Source: a virus. Taken from it: a DNA stretch of 44,202 bases. Both the position numbers and the translations under genes were made by a program. The notes beneath the pieces are model-generated. The model saw only the letters and a list, made by a program, of their open reading frames with translations, was not told the origin of the DNA and did not search any database. Numbering within the stretch: the first letter of the stretch is position 1; every line of letters begins with the position of its first letter. Location: positions 1 through 44,202 of IMG/VR virus record IMGVR_UViG_3300033233_000065, one strand, 5' to 3'. Positions 9,660 to 43,710 of this stretch are shown one piece after another.

Positions 9660-10043
9660 ATGCCGATGATTCAGCCAGACCTCAGTGATGTTGGCCCGAT
9701 TGAGCCAGGTACTTACAAAGCTCGAATCGACAAGGTTGACACTGGAGTTTCAAAGAGTGGGAATCCAAAGTTGGACATCCAGTTCAGTGTATTTGCTGGT
9801 GGAGAAAGGCCTAAGACTCGTAAAGTCAGTATGCCATATACTGGTGGTGGTGCCTTTGGCTTTGCTGGACTCCTTCGTGCCTGTCACTTCAATGAACTGG
9901 CAGATGCTTATACAAAGAAGGATGGAGCCAAGCCTCCATTCGACACAGACTCCCTCGTCTCTCAGGAGTTGATGGTTGTTGTCGAGGCCGATACCTACAA
10001 TGGCCAGATGACTGACAAGATCGTTAGCTACCTTCCTGCATAA
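9660..10043 (+). CDS. DUF669-like single-stranded DNA-binding protein
   Basis: AGGAGAAG precedes ATG 9660. The 127-residue product has the hallmarks of phage DUF669/SSB-like proteins: I-E-P-G-T-Y-K-A-R-I near the N-terminus, VSKSGNPKLDIQFSVF (a G-x-P-x-L beta segment), and a final beta strand. Its place right after the Sak4-like ATPase is the typical pairing. It would coat ssDNA during replication and recombination. A long hairpin follows. Confidence 0.75.
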   Translation: MPMIQPDLSDVGPIEPGTYKARIDKVDTGVSKSGNPKLDIQFSVFAGGERPKTRKVSMPYTGGGAFGFAGLLRACHFNELADAYTKKDGAKPPFDTDSLVSQELMVVVEADTYNGQMTDKIVSYLPA

Positions 10044-10051
10044 GGGAGTAT

Positions 10052-10107
10052 AGAAGGGCTAGGTAGCAGTTGTCCATTGTTGGACATCTATGCTATCTAG
10101 CCCTTCT
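10052..10107. terminator. 56-bp hairpin with the dispersed palindrome at its tip
   Basis: AGAAGGGCTAGGTAGCA (10052-10068) pairs with TGCTATCTAGCCCTTCT (10091-10107), 16 of 17 positions. Palindrome copy 3 sits exactly in the middle, so the whole 56 bp is one extended inverted repeat. The run after the stem (CTTCTTAC) is weakly U-rich. It could act as terminator, RNA-processing site or cruciform. Confidence 0.7.
10071..10086. repeat. Dispersed palindrome copy 3 (TGTCCATTGTTGGACA)
   Basis: Identical to copy 2, including the flanking TTG...ATCTAT. It forms the apex of the long hairpin between the ssDNA-binding protein and the 10118 gene. Confidence 0.92.
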
Positions 10108-10117
10108 TACATCTACC

Positions 10118-10417
10118 ATGACTGAGGAAGTCATCACTGGTGGGATGCTGAGAGTAGTATCTAATACAGGGAATACTACTGAAGTTTACGTAGTAAATGG
10201 ACAAGGAGCTTTTCAAGGGCTTCGAGATGCCGTCGAGCGTTTCTATGAAGCTGGGCATCCTCACATCTACTCCATCGTAGGAAGAAATGATGCAGGGATG
10301 GATATTCCTGTTGTGTTTATTCTAGAAGATATCTCCCTGATCTTTCTCCTTCCACCTCCCAGCAATATCGCTCGTCCTGGTATTGCTATCGTAGATCCTA
10401 ATAGAAAACTCTCATGA
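10118..10417 (+). CDS. Hypothetical protein (99 aa)
   Basis: ATG 10118 just beyond the hairpin has no clear ribosome-binding site; ATG 10145 (after GGTGGG) is an alternative. The product is beta-rich (TGGMLRVVSNTGNTTEVYVVNGQGAFQGLRDAVERFYEAGHPHIYSIVGRNDAG) with a hydrophobic stretch IPVVFILEDISLIFLL. No family recognised. It overlaps the methyltransferase start by 4 nt (ATGA). Confidence 0.6.
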   Translation: MTEEVITGGMLRVVSNTGNTTEVYVVNGQGAFQGLRDAVERFYEAGHPHIYSIVGRNDAGMDIPVVFILEDISLIFLLPPPSNIARPGIAIVDPNRKLS

Positions 10418-11646
10418 AAATCCCTATCTCAAGTATCAAAGTACCTCGTGAACGATTGAGGGAAGATAATGGAGATCTAGAATCTCTTGCAGCCTCCCTT
10501 GTGAAGTTTGGTCTCCTCCAGCCTATCATCATTGATCCAGATTACAATCTTGTTGCTGGCTACCGTCGACTGAATGCTGCTCAGATGAATGGGTGGACAG
10601 AGATTGAAGTTGCTATCAGAGATAACATGGACGAGCTGGATCAACGAGAAGTAGAATTAGAAGAAAACATCGCTCGGAAGGATATGACTTGGCAGGAAAG
10701 AGTCAAGAGCGTTGCAGAACTAGACAGGCTTCGTCGGTTCAAGGATCCTACTTGGACGCAGGAACAAACAGCAGCCGTCGCAGGCCTTCAGAGAACTAGA
10801 GTCACGGAAGCGCTTCAACTTGATAAGATGATGAGGCTATTCCCTGAACTATCCGAAGCTAAGGATATTAGTCAAGCAAAGAACTGGATGGCGGCGAAAG
10901 CTCAGATGGTAACGAGGAAGGTTGCTGTTAGCGCAAGTCCTGTGTATAGTGATATAGAAGATAAACTAGTCCTTGGAGACTCAACAGAGATCATCAAGTC
11001 TGTTCCTGATGAGTCATTCCATGCAGTCATCACTGATCCTCCGTTTGGAGTGGATTATGACAAGAGGTCTGAAGGCAATATTGGTCAGCTCAGTTCTTAC
11101 AGGGACGATGAAGATTCATATCTTCGTCTCCTCTCGATGGCTCCCGATCTATACCGAGTGGTCAAGCCGAACGGGTGGCTTATATGGTTTCTTGGCATCA
11201 CTTGGTATGAAAGAGCTAAAGGCGTCTTTAGAGACGCAGGATTCACAGTCGATGAGATCCCCATAATCTGGAATCGTTCAGGCGGCAGAACATTTACGTC
11301 ACGTCCTGATAGGTATTTTACTCGTGGTTACGATATTGCTTTACACTGTCTAAAGGGTGAACCACAGCTTGTGCAACGTAATAAATCTAATGTAATCACG
11401 ATTGATCCTGTATCTCAAAGTGAGCGAGAGCTACTGGTTGAACGCCCTGTTGAGTTGTATGCTGAGCTGATTCGACGTTTGACAGTTCCAGGTGAAACTA
11501 TAGCCGATTTCTTTGTTGGGTCAGGTTCTTGCTTGGCTGCTGCTGCTTCTCTTCAGCGGGATTTCTGGGGTTGCGAGCAGAATCCAGAACGTAGAGCTTA
11601 TGCTTTACAAAAAGTGAAATCGTATATTCCTACTGTGGAGAAATAA
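10414..11646 (+). CDS. ParB-like N-terminal domain fused to a DNA methyltransferase
   Basis: Residues 1-110 are a ParB/Spo0J-type domain (PISSIKVPRERLREDNGDLESLAASLVKFGLLQPIII...VAGYRRLNAAQMNGW..., then ENIARKDMTWQER), followed by a helical linker. The C-terminal part is an amino-methyltransferase: motif IV DPPF (208-211) comes before the AdoMet-binding motif I DFFVGSGS (365-372), the permuted beta-class order. It should methylate adenine-N6 or cytosine-N4 at an unknown site. No cognate restriction enzyme lies nearby, so a protective or regulatory modification is likelier. The ParB part gives DNA binding or ParB-type CTP/NTP binding. Confidence 0.88.
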   Translation: MKIPISSIKVPRERLREDNGDLESLAASLVKFGLLQPIIIDPDYNLVAGYRRLNAAQMNGWTEIEVAIRDNMDELDQREVELEENIARKDMTWQERVKSVAELDRLRRFKDPTWTQEQTAAVAGLQRTRVTEALQLDKMMRLFPELSEAKDISQAKNWMAAKAQMVTRKVAVSASPVYSDIEDKLVLGDSTEIIKSVPDESFHAVITDPPFGVDYDKRSEGNIGQLSSYRDDEDSYLRLLSMAPDLYRVVKPNGWLIWFLGITWYERAKGVFRDAGFTVDEIPIIWNRSGGRTFTSRPDRYFTRGYDIALHCLKGEPQLVQRNKSNVITIDPVSQSERELLVERPVELYAELIRRLTVPGETIADFFVGSGSCLAAAASLQRDFWGCEQNPERRAYALQKVKSYIPTVEK

Positions 11647-11647
11647 A

Positions 11648-12004
11648 ATGTCGGGCCACCATAAGTATTTACCAAAGATCAGTGATCTTGATCTTATGTG
11701 GCTTGCAGGACTTCTAGAAGGAGAAGGATGCTTTGACAATACTTCCAATGGAGTTCCAAGGATACGCCTTCGTATGGCAGATCCTGACGTAGTAGATAGG
11801 GCTGCTATGATCGTAGGACTATCTATTGACAAAGTCAAAGAGACTTCTCCCAGAGGTGTTGGTAAACTTGTAACGTATGATATAGCTATTCACGGAACAC
11901 CAGCAATACAACTCATGCAGCTTTTATATCTTCAAATGGGTGGACGTAGACGTGACAAGATAACAGAAATTCTACGAGCATCTCATGGAAGGTACAATGT
12001 CTGA
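11648..12004 (+). CDS. LAGLIDADG-type homing endonuclease
   Basis: 118 residues with the signature WLAGLLEGEGCF (residues about 18-29), in which the acidic E of EGEG would bind the catalytic metal. With one such motif it would work as a homodimer. It starts at ATG 11648 with GGAG upstream and overlaps the polymerase start by 8 nt, being inserted neatly between methyltransferase and polymerase. Free-standing homing endonucleases commonly lie beside the gene whose empty allele they cut, here probably the polymerase or methyltransferase. Confidence 0.8.
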   Translation: MSGHHKYLPKISDLDLMWLAGLLEGEGCFDNTSNGVPRIRLRMADPDVVDRAAMIVGLSIDKVKETSPRGVGKLVTYDIAIHGTPAIQLMQLLYLQMGGRRRDKITEILRASHGRYNV

Positions 12005-14384
12005 TCTAGTCCAAGCAGGTCCTCGGGACGCAAAGATTATGTTGGTAGGAGAAGCTCCTGGAGCTAACGAAGGTGCAGGTCGTCCATTTTGCGGCTATGC
12101 TGGCGACATGCTCACAAATATGTTAGGCCGCGCAGGAATACAAAGACATGAGTGTTTCATCACGAACCTCTGCCACATCAGGCCTCCAGGAAATGACTTC
12201 GAGTGGTTCTACAAAAAAGAGAACCAGATTCACTACATCCAAGGAGTCCTTCAACTCAAGAAGGACATTGAGGAGATCAAACCTAACCTCGTGGTTGCCC
12301 TTGGAGCCCATCCCCTCCGTGCTCTCACTAATCGAAAAGCTATCAGCGACTGGAGAGGAAGTATTCTGGAAAGTACACTGGTCAAAGGGCAGAAGGTTAT
12401 TGGTACATATCACCCTGCCGCTATCCTTCGTATCTGGGACTACAAAGCCATTGCAGAGTTCGACCTCAGGCGCTGTGCAGAAGAAGCCAAGACGCCAGCG
12501 ATCCTCCTCCCGATAAGAGAACTGATTCTCAATCCTACGGCTGATAAGGCCGAGCCTATCATTCGACAGATGGAGCAAGCAGACTGGCTCGCTGTTGATA
12601 TTGAAACTGCTCAGGATGATAATGGGAAGATACACATTACTTGCATTGGATTCTCAGACCGCTGGGATCGTGCGATAACACTGAGCTTCGATTCTCCACA
12701 GAATCAGCATTTCGCTCGATGCCTTCTCAGTTCCCCCGCAAAAAAGATCTTCCAAAATGGAAATATCTTCGACATCCCAGTACTTCGAGATGCTGGATAC
12801 GAGGTAAGAAACTATGCGTGGGATACGATGCTTGGGCACCATTCTCTCTTTCCTGAAAGTGCTGGCGGAGAAGATGAGATGTCTCGTATGGAAGGCAAGA
12901 AGAAGCAAGCTGCCTTACGAAAAGGTCTTGCTTTCCAAACGTCTATCTACACCCGAGAGCCTCGTTATAAAGATGATGGCAAAATGTGGCATCTCACTGG
13001 AGATATACAGATGTTCTGGCGCTACAATGCGCTGGACGCGGCTGTTACTAGAGAAATAAAAGATGCACAGGATCGAGAGCTTCATGACTTCGGAACGATT
13101 GGAGTTCTCGAACATGAGATGGCATTGACTGAGCCACTGATGGAGATGACTCGGACAGGGATCAAAGTAGATCTAACTGTCAGGGAACAGATGAAGAAGC
13201 AGATTCTTCTTGAGGTTGATCGTCTCCAGGCCTTCCTCAACGAAGGAGCAGGTTCCAGTATCAATGCCGCATCTTCTAAACAGGTTCAAGAGTTGATGTA
13301 TGGAAAGCTTGGACTGCCAGCCAAGCGGAATAAGAAAACTGGTAATCCTACGGCGAACAAGGACGCAATCAATGAACTTGCCGCCAAATACAATCACCCT
13401 CTTCTCCTGACCGTCCTAAAGATTCGTGAGCGTCGAAAGATGGTTGAGACATATCTCAACGCTCCAGTTGATGCAGACAGTCGTATGAGGTGCTCGTGGG
13501 ATGTCACAGGAACAAGAAGTGGGCGACTATCCAGTCGCGCGAGTCTCTCTGGATCTGGAACTAATCTGCAGAACATCCCGAAGGAAATGCGAAAAATGTT
13601 CGTCGCAGATGATGGATGTGTCTTTATCAATCGTGACTTCTCACAAGCGGAAGCGCGAGTCGTGGCTGCCCTCGCCGACGATCAATATCTGCTTGAACTG
13701 TTCGCAGACCCTAAACGGGACGTTCACAGAGAAACAGCTGCTGCAATCTTTGGGATTCCTGTTGGTGACGTTACTCCAGAGCAAAGATACACTGCGAAAC
13801 GAGTCCGTCATGCAGTCAACTACGGAATGGATGCTAAAAGATTTGTTGAAGTGGTCAACGAAGATGCAGAAGAAACGGGAATCAGGATTGATCTCACCCT
13901 TGCAAGAAAAGTAATAGATGGATTCTTCCTACTCCATCCAAACCATAAGACTGTCTATTGGGCAGGGATTGAGCGTGAACTTCGTGCGTCACGTACTCTC
14001 AATACACCATTTGGACGGAAGAGGACTTTCTATGGAAGGATGGATGACAAGCTTCTACGTGAAGCTTACTCTTATCCTCCACAATCCGCCATTGGAGATC
14101 TATGCTGCAAGGCACTAGTCTCTATATGGAAGGAGATACAGTTAGGGCGCCCTGATTGGAAAGTACAGCTTCTCCTCAATGTCCATGATAGCATCCTAGT
14201 ACAATGTCCTAGGGAGAGAGTTCATGAGGTTGCTAACGCTATGAAAGAGTGCATGGACATACCATTCTATGTCAATGGCCATACTGTTAGAGTCCCAACG
14301 GATTGCCAAGTAGGAGTCAACTGGAAGGACATGATAGACATTGAGAAGTGGGAGGCTCAAAATGTCAGAGCGGCTACTCCCTAA
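11997..14384 (+). CDS. Uracil-DNA-glycosylase / family-A DNA polymerase fusion
   Basis: 795 residues; ATG 11997 has GGAAGG 5 nt upstream. Domain 1 (about 1-185) is a family-4-like uracil-DNA glycosylase with GEAPGANE (18-25) and the YHPAA motif (H139). Domain 2 (about 195-370) is a 3'-5' exonuclease with D201-I-E203, GNIFDIP and YNALDAA. Domain 3 (about 385-795) is polymerase A: motif A RDFSQAE (D547), motif B KRVRHAVNYG (K601), motif C VHDS (D731). This is the replicative polymerase; the same fusion is known from SPO1-like phages. The glycosylase part may exclude uracil or be a structural remnant. Confidence 0.93.
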   Translation: MSDLVQAGPRDAKIMLVGEAPGANEGAGRPFCGYAGDMLTNMLGRAGIQRHECFITNLCHIRPPGNDFEWFYKKENQIHYIQGVLQLKKDIEEIKPNLVVALGAHPLRALTNRKAISDWRGSILESTLVKGQKVIGTYHPAAILRIWDYKAIAEFDLRRCAEEAKTPAILLPIRELILNPTADKAEPIIRQMEQADWLAVDIETAQDDNGKIHITCIGFSDRWDRAITLSFDSPQNQHFARCLLSSPAKKIFQNGNIFDIPVLRDAGYEVRNYAWDTMLGHHSLFPESAGGEDEMSRMEGKKKQAALRKGLAFQTSIYTREPRYKDDGKMWHLTGDIQMFWRYNALDAAVTREIKDAQDRELHDFGTIGVLEHEMALTEPLMEMTRTGIKVDLTVREQMKKQILLEVDRLQAFLNEGAGSSINAASSKQVQELMYGKLGLPAKRNKKTGNPTANKDAINELAAKYNHPLLLTVLKIRERRKMVETYLNAPVDADSRMRCSWDVTGTRSGRLSSRASLSGSGTNLQNIPKEMRKMFVADDGCVFINRDFSQAEARVVAALADDQYLLELFADPKRDVHRETAAAIFGIPVGDVTPEQRYTAKRVRHAVNYGMDAKRFVEVVNEDAEETGIRIDLTLARKVIDGFFLLHPNHKTVYWAGIERELRASRTLNTPFGRKRTFYGRMDDKLLREAYSYPPQSAIGDLCCKALVSIWKEIQLGRPDWKVQLLLNVHDSILVQCPRERVHEVANAMKECMDIPFYVNGHTVRVPTDCQVGVNWKDMIDIEKWEAQNVRAATP

Positions 14385-15507
14385 CTGGATCGAGGCATAC
14401 CTTGCATATACTGCCGAAAGTAGATCGCCAGAAGAGTACCATCTTTGGACAGGGATCAGTTCCATTGCTGCAGTTCTCCGAAGAAATGTACTCTTTGATA
14501 TGGGGTACTTTCTCTTGTACCCTAACTTGTATATCGTTCTTGTGGGACCTGCAGGTCGTTGTAAGAAGTCCACTGCTATGCGAATCGGAAAGTCTGTCTT
14601 TCGTGAGATCCCAGGAGTGGATTTTACTGCGGACAGTACCACCAGGGAGCGTCTCATCCAAGATTTGGCTACTTCCTATAAAGATGGGCAGTCGCCACTT
14701 ACAGCCCATAGTTCCGAGTTTGCGTCGCTTCTAACATCATCACAGATGGATATGGTAGTGTTCCTCACAGACATCTATGACTGTCCACTAGAGTGGTCTC
14801 ACAAGACCAAAACTGGAGGAACACAGAAGATCAAAGCTCCATACCTGAATCTACTTGGAGCTACTACACCAGAATGGATAGCAAGAGCAATGCCTCTTGA
14901 CACCATCGGGATTGGACTAACAAGTCGGATTATCTTTGTTTACCAAGATACTCCTCGGATCAAGAAGGCTATGCCAGAGCTATCACCAGCACAGAAGCAA
15001 CTCCATGAGATGCTCAAGCAAGACCTTACTCATATTTCAACTCTCCATCACGAATATAGATTTGACGATGATGCAAGGGAGTTCTATGAGGAGTGGGATA
15101 TGAAGAATCTCATGAAACCAAATCCTACGAATGATCCTAGATTGAATGGTTACTTCGAGCGCAAGCCAATGCACTTGATCAAACTAGCGATGATTCTAGC
15201 TGCGTCAAGCAGAGATGGTAATATCCTAACGGCGCAGGATCTTCAAAACGCGCTAGGGCTATTCGATAGAATCGAGCCGATGATGACAAGAGTGTTTGCT
15301 AACGTCGGAAAGAATCCTCTGGCAGTGGATATTGAGGATACTTTTGCAACACTACTGGCAGAAGAAAATGGCTGCTCGTTGGGAGAGTTGCTGGATAGGT
15401 TCAAGCACTCAGTCAGAAAGGAAGAACTGATCGAGGTGTTGGATACACTAGTGACGATCCAGAAGGTGCAACTGGTTGGCGGAAGGTATAAGGCTATAAG
15501 GAGGTGA
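14362..15507 (+). CDS. DUF3987-type P-loop protein, putative helicase/primase
   Basis: Start at ATG 14362 with GGGAGG 6 nt before it, overlapping the polymerase end by 23 nt. The 381-residue product begins WIEAYLAYTAESRSPEEYHLWTGISSIAAVLRRNV, the usual DUF3987 lead-in. It then has a variant Walker A GPAGRCKKST (62-71) and a Walker B region MVVFLTDIYD. Such proteins are thought to provide helicase or primase-helicase function next to the polymerase. A separate primase is not seen in this genome. It is the last plus-strand gene before the convergent terminator. Confidence 0.75.
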   Translation: MSERLLPNWIEAYLAYTAESRSPEEYHLWTGISSIAAVLRRNVLFDMGYFLLYPNLYIVLVGPAGRCKKSTAMRIGKSVFREIPGVDFTADSTTRERLIQDLATSYKDGQSPLTAHSSEFASLLTSSQMDMVVFLTDIYDCPLEWSHKTKTGGTQKIKAPYLNLLGATTPEWIARAMPLDTIGIGLTSRIIFVYQDTPRIKKAMPELSPAQKQLHEMLKQDLTHISTLHHEYRFDDDAREFYEEWDMKNLMKPNPTNDPRLNGYFERKPMHLIKLAMILAASSRDGNILTAQDLQNALGLFDRIEPMMTRVFANVGKNPLAVDIEDTFATLLAEENGCSLGELLDRFKHSVRKEELIEVLDTLVTIQKVQLVGGRYKAIRR

Positions 15508-15705: not shown

Positions 15706-18700
15706 CTGTTCTCCTTCATCTGTCTCGCCAGGTCGTTTGCAATCTTCATATGATCAATAATGAGCTGTGTGAACTGCTTGATAGTAGCATCTCGTACTTC
15801 CCTTTCTACCATCCCATCAGGCATGTGCTGAATATCGTCAATCGCTCGACGCAGATCAGCGACTTTCTGTCTAACTTCATCATGCACCTTGATTAGTTGG
15901 ATCCTATCCATGTTGTGAGTGTAGTAATCCAACAGGAGAGTAGGATCTGATGTGGCGAGCTCCTTCACGGTGCCAGCTGCCGCTTGGACCTTCTCATCTC
16001 GATTATAGAACTCTTGCACATCCTTCACATTCATCGAAGGATACTTGACAGCATATCGGCTAATCAATGGGAGTTCTTCCTTAGCAGGCAGGTATCCCTT
16101 GTCTCTATATACCAATGCAGCATCTAGAGCCTTCAGGGCATCCTGCCCCATCATACCTCCGATAGTCCCAATGGCATAGTCAAGACCTGCAGGAGACATA
16201 GCTCTACGAAGTGCTTCGAGATCAGTATTCTGACTGATCGGAGATACAGCATCTGCAATAATCCGACTGGGGAGAGATGCATTGTCAGCTCCCTGCATAT
16301 TCGGATCGAGGTTCTTATCTGAGCTTGGAGTAATAGGCGATCCCCAACCAATCTTATAGTTCGTCATGAGAGACAGAGGTACAACGCCAATCTGAGGAAT
16401 GACATTCAGAGCTACGTCATCCCAGAGAGCTCCCGCCATCTTCATTGTACCTTCAGGATCTTTGTCGTACATCTTATCAAGGACAGCTTCTGCTGACGCT
16501 CCAAAGATCTCCCCAACAACCTGAGGACGTCGAACTCGAATGATACTATTATCTCCGGCTCTGAAGAACCAATACCGCTGGCCAATCGTTGTCTTACGAA
16601 CATCCTCAATCTCCTTATCTCCATGATTGAAATACCAAAGCATCATGGAGGGAAGAGTCAATCCAACGAACGCCTTAGTAAGAAACTCTGCAGAAGCCGC
16701 TACTCTCGGACTGGCTCCCATCTCTTTGAGAGCTCCTCCCATAAAATCTTGGCTATATCGAGGCTCTCTATAAGGATGCCAACCAATCCTCTCCAAAGTC
16801 TTATCCATCGCTGCAATAGCAGGACGGGAGAACATGGTGAGATAGTTGAATACCCTCATAGCTTGAAAACCACCCTGCATACGATAGTTGCCAATCAGAT
16901 TCTGTGCAGCATATGCAGCTTCAATCGTACTTGCTCCATGATCGAGCGCACGGAGGTACTCACCAACACGTGCGGAGTTAGCAAAAGGAAGAACAATAGT
17001 CTTATATGCATCCCAGAGCTTCATTTCCTTCATCTGCTTCCATGCCAGCTTGTACGGTGCATCAGCAGAAAGACGAAGAGCTTCAGCCCTTGTTTCACTT
17101 GCAAGGTATGGAAGAGACTGGAGGGATGTAGGACCACCAGCAGCTAGCAGATCTTGATACTTCTTTGAACCTCTAAACTCATGCCACCAACCTCTAAAAC
17201 TATCAATCCCTGGACGGAAGCCATACTCGGAAAGCAAGTATGCATGGAAACTGTCCATAATGAACTGATTAGCCACAAATGCTGGGCTATAAATAACACC
17301 TTTCGATGCAAAGCGAGCAGGCAGCCCCAGCATCCTCCATGTCATCTCCATCTCAGCTGGAGATAGAGCTTTTACCGCACGGAAGATATCTGCGTTCACA
17401 CGATATGATTGAATCTCACCATTCCTGAAGTAGCTAATCACTCCAGGCTTGCCATTGATTGCTTCAGGATCCATATAAGCAAGCATAGCCTTTGCATCAG
17501 CCATAGAGATATTAGCCCACTTTCGCATTTCGGCTTCTAAGCCATCCACATTCAGAGCATGTTTATTGAGTTGCTTACCTACTGGCTGGAGAATAGCCGT
17601 CTGAATGTCCTTTGGAAGTTCATAGACTCTATCTACTAGTTGAGTCAGGATGTTGTTATACTCAGCCGATCGAAGAATACGAGCAGTCATACTCATCGTG
17701 ACATCTACAGGATTCAGAACAGGCTTGTTACTACCTCCCTTACGCATATAGAGGCCACGCTTTGCAGCAACTTTATCAGTACGAGTCTTAGCTATTCCTT
17801 CTAGTTGCTCTACAATCCGATGGAAGGGAGTATACCAATCTTCTTCTGCAAACTTATTGAAGGTATCTTGAGAGATCAAGCCGTTCTTCATCTGAACATA
17901 TGCACCTGCCAGATTGAACCGACGGAGTTCTTTAGCTGCTTCCATTAGCCAATCTGGAGAGTTAGCTATGATATGCTCAGCCTGAGCAATCGTCATAGGA
18001 AGTTTATCTGGATGCCAACCTTTTCCAGCAAGTTCCATTGTAGAGAGAGCAGTTGCTAGATTACCAAGAGCTTCCTTGTTTCCCCTAGCCTTCTTCTCTA
18101 CAATCTCTCCAAGAGGCAAGACAGGCTTATCATCAATCAAGATTGGCTCAGGATTACCAGTCTCTGGATTGATATAGTCAACCTTCGTGGTCATCCAACG
18201 TTCATTCTGTGCAGCGTAACTTCCACTCATCTCTGCCAACTTTGCAGGATTCTTCTGTGTTGGTAGATCCTTTCTAAATGGAATACGCTCGATTCCATCA
18301 ATAGCTCGAATGAGACCAGCATAGAACTCTCTCGTCCGAGCTTGGATACTAACCTTCCCACCTTCTAGATCTTCTGCAGAATATACAGCTTTCTTGAACT
18401 GATTTATTCCAGGGATAGCTTCAGACGCTTTCGGTCCTGGAGCAGCCATTGCTGCACGACGAGCAAGAAGGTACTTCGCGCCCATCCATCCAACAGACGT
18501 GCCAAGTCCCCACATAAACATACGAGATGCACGCTTATGCTCATCCTCTGGAGGAAGAGGTTCAAAGTACCCATATGACGCACCAACTGCAAAACTAGTT
18601 ACAGAAGGATGTGTATAGAGATTTTTGAACTCACTTCCAATAGGAGGAGCACCATCAGGGCCAGAAGGTTTAGACTTCCGAAGAGCTTTCTCCTCTACTA

Positions 18701-21164
18701 GCTTAGCCAGACGTTCACTCCAAGGACCCGACTCATGCGGGTCGAGGTTAGAGATTCGCTCAGGAATCTCCGCAATCTGCCGCTCAAGCATAGCATCACT
18801 AAGCTTGCTCGGAGGAATACGAAAGTCTTTCGCCGTCAAGGGCTTGACAGTAACTTCGATAGGCACAGGAGCAACAGTTTTCCTAGGAGCTTGTTGCCTA
18901 GCTTGTTCCGCTAATATCTTCCTTGTATTGATTTCCTTTTTCATCTCAGTCAGACGAGACTGAGCATCTCTTCTATCTACCTTCGATAGAGATTCATCTT
19001 GTAGCTTTAGCTCTAACGCATCTCTCTGAGACTGAAGTTCTTCAGGAGTTAGATTCTTATATGGACGTTCAGATTCAGTTGTCTTAGCTTTCTCCCGACG
19101 AGCCATCTCAGCCTTGATTGGTTCAAGCTCTTTCAGGAGAGCCTCTCGCTCTGCATCCGTCTTAGCGAAAGTTACCTTATCTACAACTGCTGTCTCCATT
19201 TTATCTAGATCACTATCAGATATCTTCGCCAGCGGGCTCTCTACCACTGGTTTTTCAGGTACGGCAGGAGGAATATCTGTTGTGATGTTAGAGGGCTTCT
19301 GCTCAGCAGCCCTTGACTGCGCTGCAATCAGATCATCTTCATAAGGCTTCAATGTTCCAGCAATCTTTGCTGATACCGGCTGCTCAGCAACTGCAACTAC
19401 GCGGGGCGGGGAAGAAGCGGTGCCGCCCGAGGGTTCCGTGAGGGCCGAAGCTTCGCTTGGGGCGGGAGGCGCTACCGTTGACGGAGGAATGTCCTCCTGT
19501 CCGAACTGTGCTTCTGGTGCTAGCTTCCCTTCGTCAGATAGTTGCTTCGTAATGCCAAGCAGCTCAGCCTGTAGTGCCTTATGACGAGGCGACCCAATCT
19601 CCTCATATGGCATATGATCTAGCTCATAAACAACTGCCTGCCCACGTTTCCATAGAACATCCTGAGCAGGGGTTCTGCTAGTTGCAGCTTCCTCAGCCAT
19701 AGTCTCAGCACGACTCTTCGCTGGACCTTCTCTTGGCTTGAGGATAGCCGAGCGTTCAGTCAGGGACTGGAGCTGAGCTTCGAGCGTAGGTATCGGAGCG
19801 TTCGGATCAAACTTTTCTCCGAGTGCAGTCAAGGCCTGTCTCAGCTCCATCCGGCGAGCAACTTCTGCTACAACTGGAGACATTCCTGGACGGACTGGTG
19901 CCTTGTCCAACGTTGGACTAGTTGGAGGCTGCGGGGGAACTTCTGGCGTTTGTGGAAGCTGACTGACTGCTTCCGCAGTCTTCACCTTCTCCTCTGCTGC
20001 TTTTGTCGCAACAGGACCTCCACTTGCTTCCGCCTTTGCTAGCTCTGCCTGAGCTGCCTCCATCGCCTGCTGTTGGATAGGAACAGGAGTCTCAGTTAGT
20101 GGCTCAGCCGGAGCCCCTTCCGCCTTCGCTTTCCGTGCAGCAGTGAACTGTGCTACATAAGCATCCCTCTCTTCCTTCGCCAGATCCTTCCATCTCTTTC
20201 CTTCATTGTCTAGAGTCCACCGTGCTTTGGCTAGCTCCCTATTCAGGCTTCGTTCTGCAGCCTTCGCCGCAGATTCTTCGGCCTTTGCTTTCAGCTCTGC
20301 AGAGACCTGCGCCCCCACAGATCCCTCCTTGGGAGCGGCACCTTCGGTGGGCACTGTTTCACCCGCCTCCGCCGTGGCAGTTGCAGTTGCTTTTGCTACC
20401 TTCGTAGCCTTAGCAGGGTCAAGAGTACCAAAGATGGCAGCACCTGTCTCAGAGAGAAGGAACTGTTTGATCTTATCTTCTGTCGGTGCTCCAGTCATGC
20501 CAGCTGCTTGGAGGATGCTGATAGGAAGCATGGCGACTGCAGACCTTCCCCCGCCTATAGCCATACGCTTAGCAAGGTTTCCTTCAACCGATTCTGTCAA
20601 GAGCTTCGCTGCGCCTTCTGCTCCAAGCTTTTTCAGACCTGTGGCGGTGATAGCAAGAGTCCCCCCAGCAACTGGCCCTATTCCAAGAGTCTGAGCAGGT
20701 AGTTCTCCAATAAACTCTCCAGCAGCTCCAGTAAAACCTTGAGGGTTGATGGTTTCAGAAATGGTCTGCCCACGTTCAGCAAGGCTCTGACGCAGTTGTT
20801 CTGCTCTATCTGATCCCATTAGAGCTGGAACAGTTGCTGCTAGTTCTGCGATAGAGAGTGGTCCTCTAGCTACGCCTGCGACTGCGCCACGAATGATGTC
20901 AGAGAATGGATTATGCTCATCTCCTGGACGAGTAAATCCCTCCTTCTGATCTTCTAGATTCTTGATAAGCTTGTCTATATGTGTTTGCTGTGCAGGACTA
21001 GCACGTAGGCGGATATTTTTCAGTGTATCAATGTTATTCTGAATACTGACTGTATCCATCTGCCGACGACCAAGAGCAGTATCTGGACTACTAATCAGAT
21101 CTGCAAAAGGATTAGCAGAACTGATGCCACTACTTGGGATCAGATCAGTGAATGGATTAGTCAT
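15702..21164 (-). CDS. Giant internal virion/ejection protein (1,820 aa)
   Basis: Starts at 21164 with AGGGA 8 nt upstream. N-terminal region: three copies of NPFxDLI-type motifs (residues 3-9, 18-24, 85-91), known from many large phage polyvalent proteins. Then a hydrophobic Gly/Ala stretch near 150-230 and a long disordered, Ala/Pro/Glu/Lys-rich part to about 900. From about 900 to 1,820 follows a globular region (NQFIMDSFHAYLLSEYGFRPG, typical of large-polyvalent-protein-associated domains). Probably packaged in the capsid and ejected with DNA. Repeat B and palindrome copy 5 lie in the disordered part. No lysozyme or protease motif was recognised. Confidence 0.75.
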   Translation of the reverse strand: MTNPFTDLIPSSGISSANPFADLISSPDTALGRRQMDTVSIQNNIDTLKNIRLRASPAQQTHIDKLIKNLEDQKEGFTRPGDEHNPFSDIIRGAVAGVARGPLSIAELAATVPALMGSDRAEQLRQSLAERGQTISETINPQGFTGAAGEFIGELPAQTLGIGPVAGGTLAITATGLKKLGAEGAAKLLTESVEGNLAKRMAIGGGRSAVAMLPISILQAAGMTGAPTEDKIKQFLLSETGAAIFGTLDPAKATKVAKATATATAEAGETVPTEGAAPKEGSVGAQVSAELKAKAEESAAKAAERSLNRELAKARWTLDNEGKRWKDLAKEERDAYVAQFTAARKAKAEGAPAEPLTETPVPIQQQAMEAAQAELAKAEASGGPVATKAAEEKVKTAEAVSQLPQTPEVPPQPPTSPTLDKAPVRPGMSPVVAEVARRMELRQALTALGEKFDPNAPIPTLEAQLQSLTERSAILKPREGPAKSRAETMAEEAATSRTPAQDVLWKRGQAVVYELDHMPYEEIGSPRHKALQAELLGITKQLSDEGKLAPEAQFGQEDIPPSTVAPPAPSEASALTEPSGGTASSPPRVVAVAEQPVSAKIAGTLKPYEDDLIAAQSRAAEQKPSNITTDIPPAVPEKPVVESPLAKISDSDLDKMETAVVDKVTFAKTDAEREALLKELEPIKAEMARREKAKTTESERPYKNLTPEELQSQRDALELKLQDESLSKVDRRDAQSRLTEMKKEINTRKILAEQARQQAPRKTVAPVPIEVTVKPLTAKDFRIPPSKLSDAMLERQIAEIPERISNLDPHESGPWSERLAKLVEEKALRKSKPSGPDGAPPIGSEFKNLYTHPSVTSFAVGASYGYFEPLPPEDEHKRASRMFMWGLGTSVGWMGAKYLLARRAAMAAPGPKASEAIPGINQFKKAVYSAEDLEGGKVSIQARTREFYAGLIRAIDGIERIPFRKDLPTQKNPAKLAEMSGSYAAQNERWMTTKVDYINPETGNPEPILIDDKPVLPLGEIVEKKARGNKEALGNLATALSTMELAGKGWHPDKLPMTIAQAEHIIANSPDWLMEAAKELRRFNLAGAYVQMKNGLISQDTFNKFAEEDWYTPFHRIVEQLEGIAKTRTDKVAAKRGLYMRKGGSNKPVLNPVDVTMSMTARILRSAEYNNILTQLVDRVYELPKDIQTAILQPVGKQLNKHALNVDGLEAEMRKWANISMADAKAMLAYMDPEAINGKPGVISYFRNGEIQSYRVNADIFRAVKALSPAEMEMTWRMLGLPARFASKGVIYSPAFVANQFIMDSFHAYLLSEYGFRPGIDSFRGWWHEFRGSKKYQDLLAAGGPTSLQSLPYLASETRAEALRLSADAPYKLAWKQMKEMKLWDAYKTIVLPFANSARVGEYLRALDHGASTIEAAYAAQNLIGNYRMQGGFQAMRVFNYLTMFSRPAIAAMDKTLERIGWHPYREPRYSQDFMGGALKEMGASPRVAASAEFLTKAFVGLTLPSMMLWYFNHGDKEIEDVRKTTIGQRYWFFRAGDNSIIRVRRPQVVGEIFGASAEAVLDKMYDKDPEGTMKMAGALWDDVALNVIPQIGVVPLSLMTNYKIGWGSPITPSSDKNLDPNMQGADNASLPSRIIADAVSPISQNTDLEALRRAMSPAGLDYAIGTIGGMMGQDALKALDAALVYRDKGYLPAKEELPLISRYAVKYPSMNVKDVQEFYNRDEKVQAAAGTVKELATSDPTLLLDYYTHNMDRIQLIKVHDEVRQKVADLRRAIDDIQHMPDGMVEREVRDATIKQFTQLIIDHMKIANDLARQMKENR
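19393..19469. repeat. GC-rich dispersed repeat, copy B (in frame inside virion gene)
   Basis: GCAACTACGCGGGGCGGGG, then GGTGCCG and CGAAGCTTCG, align with copies A, C and D. On the minus strand it encodes a Pro/Ser/Ala-rich stretch (PAPSEASALTEPSGGTASSP) of the giant virion protein, GC-richer than the surrounding gene. Confidence 0.65.
19904..19919. repeat. Dispersed palindrome copy 5 (TGTCCAACGTTGGACT)
   Basis: Inside the disordered section of the giant virion protein (encoding SPTLDK). The core TCCAACGTTGGA is a perfect palindrome; one outer base deviates. Second of the two intragenic copies. Confidence 0.85.
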
Positions 21165-39498: not shown

Positions 39499-41118
39499 TC
39501 ATGATATTTGAGTCTCGCAAATCTGACCACCGAAGATGGAGTATGCCAACTCAGGATCAATCTCTTCATCCGGATCAAGGTTCAGAGCCTTCCGAATGAT
39601 CTCAGTGTCTGTCCCTCGGATGGATGAGATGATTCGGCGTTCTTCCTTCCGCATCCGTTCTTGAAACTCAGGAGAGAGCTGACCCTTCACAAGCTGAAGC
39701 TGAAGAGCCAAGCAGTCCACTGCATCGTCATGTTCCCCTAGGGGATAGTCTGCCATCTCTTGACGCAAGATCATCTGCGTCGAGCGAATGAACAGACGGC
39801 CTGTCGCCATGATAGGCTGCAACCCCCGAACGTGAGGCTTGCCCTTCCCACCTGGCTTCAGAGGTTCGATCCTGCTATACAACCCTTCTGCATCTGTCCG
39901 CTGTTTTAGGAAGAACTGGAGAGACATCTGATAGGTGGCCTTCTCAATACCGATCTTTCGAGGGCCGTATCGCTTGGTGAACATCACTAGCTTCTCGATC
40001 AGTTCGAGAGGCGTACACCTTGCTGCGAAGCTCTCCAATACCACCATCTGATTACGTGGTGAGATGCCTACCACCGAGATGCTGTTTCGATCACTGGTCA
40101 GGGTCTCCGCTGGGGCTGGATCAACTGTGATCGTTACATCCAGCTGATCCAACCTCCAGCTGTCTTGCACCGTCCCATCGTGGTTGAAGAGCTCTACCCG
40201 ATCCCCTGCCTCATTCCATTCCCAGAACTTTAGATCCTCTACATTCAGGTCCTGAACATCTGGGTTCCTCGGATTGTTCATGTAGTTGCATGACCATCTG
40301 TACTCCAGCACCACATCCCGAATCTCAGCAAGCTTCTTCAAGCTGAACCGCTCTGGGAAGATTGGCTGTCCGTCCTCGATCGCCCCTCTGATGAAGCGGG
40401 ACATCCTCGGACGGAAGGTCTTCTCGTACCATGAGTACACATCCGCGAATGTCCATCTCGTCCCTACCAGCCAATGTGTATCTTTTTCTGGATCAATCAT
40501 CAGGGCATCTACACCCTTGATTCTATTGATTGCTTCCTGCATGACCAGCTCGGACCTGACAGCTTCTTCCGAGATCGGGTCGTCATCTGTGATATGATTG
40601 AAGTGCTGAGATGTGCTGGTGCTGGTAATGCCAGCTGCACTAATCGTCGGTTCAGGGTATTGTCCCTGCCTAACGAAGTCTAGCTCACTATCATTCCACC
40701 GGACCTTCTTCATATCTTTAGGGATCACCTCCGGATACAGGGCTCTGAAGATCCGGTTGCCTTCAGCATGCTGTCGGATGGTACGGAGGAACCTCTGTGC
40801 GTTTGTTGCTACCTCATTCCGAATGAGATTTCTCTTCTCTGGATTCTGAACCACCTTCTGCATTGTCCCACCGATAGTTAGGACAGATGACTTGAAATGG
40901 TCACGAGGCCAGAGGATCAACTTGAACTGTGAAGGGTTCACCTGGATGAATCTGCAGGCTGGCCCGTGGCAGCCCATCGCCATGTCTCTGTATCCCAGAA
41001 CCCCCTTCGCAAAGAAGTAAAGGTCGGTTCGCCCTCGCAGTGCGAGTTCTTCTCGCATATCGGTGGGGAGGGATGCGACTTTCTCGTCTACGAAGGGGAT
41101 ATCTGGGGTATCAACCAT
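39499..41118 (-). CDS. Terminase large subunit
   Basis: 539 residues. ATPase: WPRDHFKSS (70-78) as deviant Walker A, Walker B with ITDDDP (D178-D180) and a coupling region (VGTRWTFADVYSW). Nuclease: TVDPAPAE (D333), IEKATY (E392) and EHDDAVDCLAL (D464, D465, D468). It starts at 41118 overlapping the previous gene; AAGGA is about 10 nt upstream. It cuts concatemers and pumps DNA through the portal. A headful mechanism would fit the circular, permuted-looking assembly. Confidence 0.93.
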   Translation of the reverse strand: MVDTPDIPFVDEKVASLPTDMREELALRGRTDLYFFAKGVLGYRDMAMGCHGPACRFIQVNPSQFKLILWPRDHFKSSVLTIGGTMQKVVQNPEKRNLIRNEVATNAQRFLRTIRQHAEGNRIFRALYPEVIPKDMKKVRWNDSELDFVRQGQYPEPTISAAGITSTSTSQHFNHITDDDPISEEAVRSELVMQEAINRIKGVDALMIDPEKDTHWLVGTRWTFADVYSWYEKTFRPRMSRFIRGAIEDGQPIFPERFSLKKLAEIRDVVLEYRWSCNYMNNPRNPDVQDLNVEDLKFWEWNEAGDRVELFNHDGTVQDSWRLDQLDVTITVDPAPAETLTSDRNSISVVGISPRNQMVVLESFAARCTPLELIEKLVMFTKRYGPRKIGIEKATYQMSLQFFLKQRTDAEGLYSRIEPLKPGGKGKPHVRGLQPIMATGRLFIRSTQMILRQEMADYPLGEHDDAVDCLALQLQLVKGQLSPEFQERMRKEERRIISSIRGTDTEIIRKALNLDPDEEIDPELAYSIFGGQICETQIS

Positions 41119-41341: not shown

Positions 41342-41660
41342 TCGGATTAGCCTTCTTCAGTTTGAACGAGACGACCGCTGCTCCTTGCACGATGAGACCT
41401 TTCAAGATCGCAGGGGTCAACTGGCTGAGACAGTCTGATGCACTCATATCTACCGAGCATGAAATATTCGTCCCGATGACACTTGCTCCCACTGCAAACG
41501 CCTGTGTCAGCACAAACATCCAAGCATGTTTTGCCCATGCTGGCTGACTGTCAATCCAACCTCCGAGCTTCTTGATATACTGGAAGGCAAACATCGCCAG
41601 GGGCCCTGCAACTGCTCCGATCAGGAACGACGTAGGAACTAGCTTCAACAGTACATTCAT
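41334..41660 (-). CDS. Holin-like membrane protein (108 aa)
   Basis: GGAGGAACAG before 41660. Three hydrophobic segments: LVPTSFLIGAVAGPLAMFAFQYI (about 7-29), HAWMFVLTQAFAVGASVIG (about 45-63) and LKGLIVQGAAVVSF (about 86-99), with Lys-rich end (KLKKANPNG). The size and three-span topology match class I holins. Lying between the terminase subunits, away from the putative lysis pair, is unusual but seen in some phages. Confidence 0.6.
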   Translation of the reverse strand: MNVLLKLVPTSFLIGAVAGPLAMFAFQYIKKLGGWIDSQPAWAKHAWMFVLTQAFAVGASVIGTNISCSVDMSASDCLSQLTPAILKGLIVQGAAVVSFKLKKANPNG

Positions 41661-42199
41661 TCTGTTCCTCCAGTGATTGATGGCCGCTGAGGAACTTCAT
41701 CTACTTTGACGAAGTCTCCTTCTGCGACCTCTGCATCCATCGCCTGCAGCAACCTTCCTTCTGTCAGGGCTGCAGCAATCTCCTTCGCATCCCTCCCTGA
41801 AAGAGTGAAAGCTTCCATCTGAATCTTGTTCGTCTTGCTCGTCTCTGGGTTCCGATCGAGGATATCCTTTGCAGCCTTGAACTTGACCTCCTCCGTCGAG
41901 CCGTTGGTGATCTGTTCTTCCATCACATTCAGTGCCTTCTCTGATAGCTTCGCTATGACGGCTGACAAGCTCATGGCTCTCTCTGTAACCCCAGAATCAA
42001 AGGATTCCTCAAACTTCCTGCCTGCCACCGAGCGTCTGGCATTACTCACTGTCGACGCTGTGACTCCCGCAATCTGCCCTGCTTCCCTTTGTGTCCTGAC
42101 AGCACCCGACACATATAGCTTCAATGCCATCTTCGTCCTTGGAGGGACGTTTGGATGGTCTTTCTGTCTCCATGCCCTGTTATATTCCGGTGAAGTCAT
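41657..42199 (-). CDS. Terminase small subunit-like protein
   Basis: 180 residues. N-terminal HTH (TQREAGQIAGVTASTVSNARRSVAG, about 34-60) preceded by a basic start, a central helical region (SLSAVIAKLSEKALNVMEEQITNGSTEEVKFKAAKDILDRNPETSKTNKIQ) and a disordered tail. That order is typical of small terminases that recognise the packaging site. First gene behind the minus-strand promoter at 42257-42285; GGTGAA-type context but a weak ribosome-binding site. Confidence 0.78.
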   Translation of the reverse strand: MTSPEYNRAWRQKDHPNVPPRTKMALKLYVSGAVRTQREAGQIAGVTASTVSNARRSVAGRKFEESFDSGVTERAMSLSAVIAKLSEKALNVMEEQITNGSTEEVKFKAAKDILDRNPETSKTNKIQMEAFTLSGRDAKEIAAALTEGRLLQAMDAEVAEGDFVKVDEVPQRPSITGGTE

Positions 42200-42256
42200 T
42201 TCCAGCCCATTCCGATGTCAGGCCTCGTCAGGCCATGTTCTCCATCTCTCCATCAC

Positions 42257-42285
42257 ATCATAATATCAGAACCATACCTTGTCAA
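42257..42285 (-). promoter_or_regulatory. Late promoter for the packaging and virion operon
   Basis: On the minus strand: TTGACA (42285-42280), 17 nt, TATGAT (42262-42257); expected start near 42250. The only strong promoter seen ahead of the 26-kb minus-strand arm. Confidence 0.82.
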
Positions 42286-42301
42286 TAGCCTATGTCGAAG
42301 A

Positions 42302-42317
42302 TGTCCAATATTAGACA
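42302..42317. repeat. Dispersed palindrome copy 10 (TGTCCAATATTAGACA)
   Basis: One deviating base. Its centre (42309.5) lies about 60 bp upstream of the predicted start of the late promoter, a place used by activators. Confidence 0.87.
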
Positions 42318-42444
42318 AGTGGGCATCCGAGAAGTCCCTGCTAGAATGTTTGTCAGTATGACCCTAAAAAGTTGCTCGCGTTTTGTAGGAAGTCACCTCC
42401 GCGCGGGCTACTCACGGTTGGGGGGCTACCCCCCGTCCGTCGCT

Positions 42445-42459
42445 GTGTCGCATCGACAC
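42445..42459. promoter_or_regulatory. Palindromic operator candidate GTGTCG-CAT-CGACAC
   Basis: Perfect 6-bp arms with a 3-bp centre, ending 3 bp before the -35 box of the plus-strand promoter. The GTGTCG half-site recurs in the leader (42575, 42605 inverted) and after the gene (43097 inverted), which would suit autoregulation. Confidence 0.5.
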
Positions 42460-42462
42460 GTC

Positions 42463-42491
42463 TTGACATTTCACATCATCGGTTGTATCAT
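42463..42491 (+). promoter_or_regulatory. Promoter of the GC-rich accessory gene
   Basis: TTGACA (42463-42468), 17 nt, TATCAT (42486-42491); start point near 42498. Same -10 sequence as the promoter at 43682. Confidence 0.8.
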
Positions 42492-42563
42492 TCATACGTA
42501 GCGAAACGACACGCACGACGGCGGTTGGCCGCGTGTTGGTGTCACCGATGTTTGACAACTGAT

Positions 42564-42581
42564 TGTATGTGTATGTGTCGG
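42564..42581. repeat. Left 18-bp inverted repeat of the accessory gene
   Basis: TGTATGTGTATGTGTCGG; exact reverse complement of 43096-43113. It brackets one gene and its leader, about 530 bp apart. Confidence 0.85.
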
Positions 42582-42619
42582 ATCGAAACAACAACCGATT
42601 CATCCGACACGGAGAAACG

Positions 42620-43081
42620 ATGGACATCAATCAAGCCATTACCGACAACGGTTGTCAGGAATACGGTTTCAAATGGAGCGCCGAAACCGTCAGCCGCGAC
42701 CACGGGCCAAATGCGAGCGATCGGCGCCCGGTAAACAACAAGGCGCAGATCGTGGTCATTTTTGACGTGGCGAAGTTCGAGGCCGCGTTCCCCGGGTATT
42801 TGCTCAAGTGTGCCAATGGCACGTCTCCCCGCGTGGAATGCCAACGCATCGGGCGGAAGTTCACGGGAAATGACATTCCCGGAAACCGCCGTGCGGTTGT
42901 GTCGCACATGATGGGATCGCGCGTGAAGTTGGCGCGCATCGTCAGCCGCCCGTTGCCGGACGGTAAGACGTACACCGGAACGGACGAAACCGAATACCGC
43001 CAGATGTACGCGGCGGCGCTTGTGGACGCCGGAGTTGACGGCCCACTCGCGGTTGAGATCGCACGTAGAACGGCGTGGTAA
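42620..43081 (+). CDS. Accessory (moron-like) protein of unknown function (153 aa)
   Basis: GGAGA 6 nt before ATG 42620. GC-richer than its surroundings, with its own promoter, operator-like palindrome, flanking 18-bp inverted repeats and terminator: the marks of an independently acquired unit. The product (MDINQAITDNGCQEYGFKWSAETVSRDHGPNAS...VVIFDVAKFEAAFPGYLLKCANGTSPRVEC...GSRVKLARIVSRPLPDGKTYTGTDETEYRQMYAAALVDAGVDG) looks globular alpha/beta with a basic middle (RIGRKF, GNRRAV). No family is recognised. Confidence 0.75.
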   Translation: MDINQAITDNGCQEYGFKWSAETVSRDHGPNASDRRPVNNKAQIVVIFDVAKFEAAFPGYLLKCANGTSPRVECQRIGRKFTGNDIPGNRRAVVSHMMGSRVKLARIVSRPLPDGKTYTGTDETEYRQMYAAALVDAGVDGPLAVEIARRTAW

Positions 43082-43122: not shown

Positions 43123-43158
43123 AACCCCGTAGGTGTTTCGCTTACGGGGTTATTTTTC
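43123..43158 (+). terminator. Rho-independent terminator of the accessory gene
   Basis: AACCCCGTA (43123-43131) pairs perfectly with TACGGGGTT (43143-43151), 11-nt loop, followed by ATTTTT. Confidence 0.9.
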
Positions 43159-43198
43159 GTCGCTGATATGCCGATGTTAGGATGATGTGTCAGGTCCC

Positions 43199-43350
43199 GG
43201 TAGGAATCGTAGGTCCTTACACCCGGGTTTCATGGGGTGGTAGGTGTTGTAGGGGTTTCCCTGGTGTTTAAAAATATATGTAAGGGAAAACCTTAGGGCA
43301 TACACCTACTACCATACAAAACCCACCCGTCAGGACCTACTACTCCTACC
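43199..43350. other. 152-bp nested palindrome with AT-rich centre: candidate replication origin
   Basis: Three pairs of arms share one centre near 43274: GGTAGGAATCGTAGGTCC (43199-43216) with GGACCTACTACTCCTACC (43333-43350), 16/18; GGTGGTAGGTGT (43236-43247) with ACACCTACTACC (43302-43313), 11/12; GGTTTCCCT with AGGGAAAACC. The core 43266-43283 is nearly all A/T. GTAGG occurs at 43200, 43209, 43240, 43249 and inverted at 43305, 43336, 43345, in pairs 9 bp apart repeated at 40-bp steps, like iterons. Confidence 0.55.
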
Positions 43351-43393
43351 ATGTCCCATTTATGGTTGATCGAATATTACATTGACAGAACCA

Positions 43394-43422
43394 TTGCGGA
43401 GTTGAACACCTGATGGTATCGT
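43394..43422 (+). promoter_or_regulatory. Weak promoter candidate before the 47-residue gene
   Basis: TTGCGG (43394-43399), 17 nt, TATCGT (43417-43422). The -10 surroundings (CTGATGGTATCRTT) match those of the strong promoter at 43682. Confidence 0.4.
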
Positions 43423-43491
43423 TCATTCAATGGGAACGTGGATGGGATTGACAACCGATGGAATGGACATTCACTCATTCGGAGGTGGATA

Positions 43492-43635
43492 ATGGCTAAT
43501 CCCACAAGGATTCCACCGGGAAGTAAAATCTTGATCATTGCCAGCCAGGTGACGTTTGAGGAGATTCTCTCCCATACGTTCGTCGTGTTGCTGGAGACGG
43601 AAGATGGTTGGATTCTCACAACGACAAAGGTGTGA
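43492..43635 (+). CDS. Small hypothetical protein (47 aa)
   Basis: ATG 43492 has GGAGGTGG 6 nt upstream. Product MANPTRIPPGSKILIIASQVTFEEILSHTFVVLLETEDGWILTTTKV looks like a compact beta-barrel (alternating hydrophobics). Function unknown. Palindrome copy 11 begins 3 nt after the stop. Confidence 0.65.
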   Translation: MANPTRIPPGSKILIIASQVTFEEILSHTFVVLLETEDGWILTTTKV

Positions 43636-43681: not shown

Positions 43682-43710
43682 TTGACAAGTTGTGGATCTG
43701 ATGGTATCAT
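43682..43710 (+). promoter_or_regulatory. Early promoter for the small-gene operon
   Basis: TTGACA (43682-43687), 17 nt, TATCAT (43705-43710); start near 43717. It should drive 43786 onward, through the junction, to about 5.4 kb. Confidence 0.82.

Follow-up and report, generated by a model that had tools for sequence, protein, structure and literature searches.

A long palindrome ahead of the early genes is a candidate replication origin in phages with a DUF3987 primase and a family A DNA polymerase

What is the role of a long palindrome that lies beside the early genes of a phage? We analyzed this question in a viral record 44,202 bp long (the window), which is a complete circular map. The same 127 bp stand at both of its ends, most likely as an assembler overlap. 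A sequence-only reading had noticed the palindrome and had offered three options for it: a replication origin, a packaging site, or a large structured RNA. The palindrome has these parts:

43199..43350, no strand: imperfect palindrome of 152 bp, candidate origin
43199..43247, no strand: left arm, with GTAGG at 43200, 43209 and 43240 (and at 43249, just inside)
43302..43350, no strand: right arm, with CCTAC at 43305, 43336 and 43345
43250..43295, no strand: inner arms (43250-43262 and 43283-43295) with the loop between them
43267..43279, no strand: A/T-only core TTTAAAAATATAT of 13 nt, candidate unwinding element

The outer arms are 49 nt each, are 76% complementary, and share their centre with the inner pair. 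The nesting depth of the fold was often matched by shuffled sequences, so we replaced this statistic with inverted-repeat dynamic programming. By that measure, 43199-43350 is the strongest long inverted repeat of the 44-kb record. It scores 25.2, whereas 10 shuffles of the whole genome gave 18.6 at best, and none of 132 shuffled 8-kb regions reached its score. Concentric arm pairs around an A/T-only core, as originally described, are confirmed. Compared with dinucleotide shuffles, the fold of the strand has z = -5.4 when treated as RNA and z = -3.7 when treated as DNA. Next in rank among the long inverted repeats is 10032-10130, with a score of 19.0.

The palindrome had been placed in a divergent region where early transcription begins. 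The features around it are:

41657..42199, minus strand: terminase small subunit (TerS), phrog_2538
42463..42491, plus strand: promoter of the upstream gene, divergent from TerS, TTGACA-17-TATCAT (11 of 12); the real divergence point
42620..43081, plus strand: conserved upstream early gene, 153 aa, without a known domain, homologous and syntenic in relatives
43123..43151, plus strand: intrinsic terminator closing the upstream gene
43382..43422, plus strand: promoter-like stretch past the palindrome, with TTGACA at 43382 and, separately, a weak extended -10 type TTGCGG-17-TATCGT at 43394-43422
43464..43493, plus strand: promoter-like TGGACA-18-GATAAT (10 of 12)
43682..43710, plus strand: early promoter-like TTGACA-17-TATCAT (11 of 12), with TG before the -10

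The leftward late genes start at 42199, with TerS, and the rightward early genes start from the promoter at 42463, so the point of divergence is at about 42200-42460. From there it is about 0.7 kb to the palindrome, which stands between the terminator and the early promoters. Because a plus-strand promoter, a plus-strand gene and its terminator all precede the palindrome, the genes that flank it are co-directional, and the divergent placement was mistaken. The promoters at 42463-42491 and 43682-43710 are nearly identical, and both are upstream of early genes.

GC skew had been suggested as a check on the origin, and it did not support the palindrome in that role. The cumulative skew of the record has its minimum at 42516. 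In a set of 12 genomes, the terminase side and the early side differ in skew (p = 0.0005), and the two sides of the palindrome do not (p = 0.79), which places the switch at the divergence of TerS and the early genes. Since the skew reports transcription, it argues neither for nor against an origin.

The genes for replication and packaging that bear on the question are:

39499..41118, minus strand: terminase large subunit (TerL), phrog_38
14341..15507, plus strand: DUF3987 primase/helicase-like ATPase, candidate replication partner
11985..14384, plus strand: family A DNA polymerase (PolA) with an N-terminal uracil-DNA-glycosylase domain

The N-terminal domain of PolA matches Pfam UDG, of the uracil-DNA-glycosylase superfamily (E=2.7e-25). 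The virus also encodes an SU10-type portal and, at 10414-11646, a fusion of a ParB N-terminal domain with an N6/N4 DNA methylase. On the circle, some 15 kb separate the primase from the palindrome. We found no initiator gene beside the palindrome, where the neighbouring genes are without known domains. A comparison of TerL with solved structures, from which we hoped to infer the packaging mode, gave no match, and we found no close DNA relatives in GenBank.

We gathered relatives by searching with TerL (one locus, and then 80 loci). In nearly all of the closer relatives, the equivalent slot also holds a palindrome, which measures about 150-350 bp. In tests on the region, the palindromes of L002, L004, L006, L007, L012, L014/L015, L017, L019, L021 and L022 scored above every shuffle; in L005, the palindrome was noticed on visual inspection of the fold. 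L016 is positive on its whole genome (G008 16988-17335), at a site that is 8 kb from TerL and adjoins TerS. Ten relatives contain a homolog of the upstream gene, and the order TerS, upstream gene, palindrome, early genes is kept.

We also compared 19 further long genomes to whole-genome shuffles, and a similar palindrome was the top inverted repeat in 13 of them. (For G004, the palindrome equals the shuffle maximum in the whole-genome test and exceeds it in the regional test.) The exceptions were Tiera, PaMx41, G014, G017, G019 and G022. No palindrome stands out in the whole-genome test in Tiera or in the four G-numbered genomes, which are more distant and have DUF3987. PaMx41 has a weaker, repeat-built version that runs across the ends of its record and is below the palindrome score that we used. 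The palindrome is also found in isolates or named records with very different hosts: Mel-JY34, MW202489, MW202554, OP947158, VS-ABTNL-3 and BK063670. In OP947158, Mel-JY34, MW202489 and BK063670, the primase and PolA are similar, and tblastn detected no similarity in TerL, which leaves room for distant homology. BK063670 (L127), which is assigned to Methanomicrobiales, has a 398-bp inverted repeat at 385-782, on the early side of the terminase genes and with TATA-rich DNA nearby.

Because a search with TerL could favour packaging sites, we drew a second sample of 18 long contigs, which were chosen only by their matches to the DUF3987 primase. Ten of these 18 contain the palindrome, with scores of 23-48 (the shuffle maximum was 18.0). 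All ten have an A/T or poly-T stretch at the centre, and none of the ten palindromes is inside a long reading frame. The match to TerL is very weak or absent in most of the ten. Of the eight contigs without it, several are incomplete (G028 starts beside TerL and G027 ends in TerL), yet G039 has matching contig ends and is also negative. The palindrome is real and is found across the family, and it accompanies the module of DUF3987 primase and PolA across phages whose terminases are often not detectably similar.

What these elements share is their architecture. An A/T stretch (at least 17 of 20 positions) lies at the centre of 25 of 30 palindromes, as compared to 4.9% of random 80-mers. TTGACA is found within 170 bp past the palindrome in the early direction, firing away from it, in 11 of 22 cases (null 7.3%); a promoter score of at least 10 of 12 is found there in 10 of 22 (null 4.0%); and a terminator lies within 350 bp before the palindrome in 11 of 20 (null 5.9%), where the nulls for the flanks take in coding DNA, so that part of the enrichment of promoters and terminators is merely intergenic.

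The arms vary among relatives in their sequence, in their length (132-398 bp), and in their repeats, which include the GTAGG iterons. In a single pairwise comparison, with the closest relative (L004), 26 pairs are unchanged, none are compensated, and 24 are broken, yet L004 carries a long palindrome of its own. This implies that the arms are rebuilt rather than kept pair by pair, which argues against an RNA structure and in favour of either recognition of the DNA's shape or renewal by template switching.

GTAGG or CCTAC occurs 7 times within the 152 bp, or 25 times the genome density, and the only three GTAGG-N4-GTAGG pairs in the genome are all inside the palindrome (at 43200, at 43240, and at 43336 on the other strand). 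The four GTAGG copies of the left arm were reached in 0 of 200 shuffles. The 40-bp periodicity noticed earlier is exact in its spacings (43200/43240, 43209/43249 and 43305/43345); as for the pairs, 43305 and 43345 are CCTAC, that is, inverted, and 43305 has no N4 partner. The description as iteron-like suits this phage and a few others, with repeats that are also significant in G035, G031 and G038, and does not extend to the family: directly repeated motifs in the arms were not significant in most of the 30 palindromes checked. GTAGG is ruled out as a family-wide iteron, as it is absent from 6 of 12 relatives. GTAGG/CCTAC repeats are also present in the palindromes of G035 (18929-19230; loci L247-L249), L015 (647-846) and L022 (4536-4755). 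Phage-specific motifs such as GTAGG are perhaps docking sites.

A palindrome with a different spelling recurs in many distant relatives, again with a terminator before it and an early promoter after it, which suggests that it is probably a start site for DNA copying. Of the three options offered at the outset, the origin is the best supported: the palindrome tracks the primase and PolA module, contains an A/T core, and has the terminator and promoter flanks. From the sequence comparisons, and with doubt and confidence in about equal measure, we propose that this phage starts its replication mainly at the palindrome, and that podoviruses with the DUF3987 primase and PolA have this type of origin in common. 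What counts against the proposal is that most relatives have no iterons, that no initiator gene adjoins the palindrome, and that some genomes with DUF3987 have no clear palindrome.

How might such an origin work? In the twin-domain model of transcription, negative supercoiling is predicted behind a promoter that fires away, after a terminator. We infer that the early sigma-70 promoter just past the palindrome would fire away from it while the terminator just before it would exclude other transcription. Negative supercoiling behind the polymerase could then melt the A/T core and allow the long arms to extrude as hairpins. Replication proteins, most likely the DUF3987 ATPase/primase and then PolA, would load onto the open core or the hairpins, and they may recognise the architecture (arms around an A/T core) instead of a sequence. 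Shea, a Jamesmcgillvirus phage of a related genus, persists as an episome without integration (PMC13348215), so phages of a related group can replicate autonomously.

Our literature searches found no published description of this type of palindrome. We tentatively suggest, and with rather more doubt than we attach to the origin in this phage, that it marks an undescribed class of origin in many bacterial phages with DUF3987 and PolA and in one virus assigned to methanogenic archaea. Such origins would be recognised by shape and opened by early transcription, and their sequence would be free to turn over. Where replication starts is unknown for most environmental lytic phages, and the palindrome is a recognisable mark that makes the question directly testable. 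The mark can be found from sequence in dozens of unrelated-looking genomes, including those of the cultured Microcystis phage Mel-JY34, of the cultured phage VS-ABTNL-3 and, in a weaker form, of PaMx41/PaP2. If it is an origin, then DUF3987, a domain of unknown function, would gain a site of action.

Instead of an origin, the palindrome could be a genome end or the site where packaging initiates, with the terminase cutting concatemers at or near it, as at the concatemer junction of T7. At the T7 junction, the terminal repeat is flanked by short repeats in arrays, a proposal exists that the end is a hairpin, and the next elements are early promoters of the host type. The slot of the palindrome, between a terminated upstream gene and early promoters and upstream of TerS and TerL, resembles the left end of T7, whose junction likewise has the last gene on one side and the early promoters on the other. 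(The primary origin of T7, an A/T element beside promoters, is similar too.) T7 is not known to have a palindrome of 150-400 bp with an A/T core at those sites. The GenBank records of PaP2, 119X and PaMx41 start within the equivalent element, and for Shea, a related phage, PhageTerm reported ends with terminal redundancy (PMC13348215). However, the palindrome is kept where TerL is not detectably similar, and in the cases measured it stands anywhere from about 1.2 to 8 kb away from TerL, so the replication module is the better fit. Furthermore, the end repeats of 99-127 bp in these assemblies resemble k-mer overlaps of the assembler and therefore show no physical end, and the join in Jamesmcgillvirus is continuous in other records of the genus. 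We consider a genome end or packaging site unlikely, though it is the strongest alternative to an origin; if it were one, the palindrome would explain packaging in the same group of phages.

Another explanation is that the palindrome regulates the early promoter: as an insulator that responds to supercoiling or is bound by a protein, it would adjust the level of early transcription without starting replication. The enrichment of promoters and terminators fits this, and the GTAGG repeats are possible binding sites in this phage. However, inverted complementarity over 150-400 bp is seldom required for such an element, and this explanation does not account for the association with the primase and polymerase. 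We find it distinctly improbable.

A quasi-palindrome might also have no function: template switching at a mutational hot spot, such as a replication start, would generate and renew it, and it would be tolerated. The turnover of the arms relative to L004, without pairwise compensation, is what this predicts. Against it, the place, the A/T core and the flanks are the same in very distant phages, and bacteria usually counter-select long palindromes, so we give it only a slim chance. Least probable is a large structured RNA. Either strand folds very stably, as such an RNA would, but equal stability of the two strands is expected for any DNA palindrome, the terminator before and the promoters after largely shield the palindrome from transcription, no compensated pairs were seen relative to L004, and a search of Rfam with the palindrome gave no match.

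Large palindromes are also known from the telomere sites of phages of the N15 type. A protelomerase site is ruled out, as there was no match to PF16684, the arms are 76% complementary, and the core is asymmetric.

Among known origins, the oriL of herpes simplex is likewise a long palindrome near promoters. HSV origins have inverted boxes around an AT spacer and a hairpin intermediate (PMC12543377). As in OriS and oriL, our element has inverted copies of a motif that flank an A/T spacer, and its arms could form hairpins; in contrast, it belongs to a tailed phage, and its arms are far more variable among relatives. No origin-binding helicase of the UL9 type was found among the proteins scanned, which were part of the genome's set. 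Iteron-type origins of phages and plasmids have a short repeat beside an A/T element, as this phage does with GTAGG, and the ACCTTGA-like arrays of Jamesmcgillvirus are comparable, but the arms of most relatives have no detectable repeats and no initiator gene adjoins.

In the Jamesmcgillvirus phages PaMx41, PaP2 and 119X, the element in the equivalent place consists of a terminator, arms of inverted short repeats, an A/T core and then the early genes; it differs from ours in being built of repeat arrays with weaker complementarity. Across 11 Jamesmcgillvirus genomes, the right arm consists of ACCTTGA-like repeats in an array whose copy number varies (in L124, the junction of 43130-43490 and 1-380). 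PaMx41 (L124) also has a separate 104-bp palindrome at 42480-42583, between gp55 and gp54 and past a promoter-like sequence, which is probably in the 5' leader of gp54.
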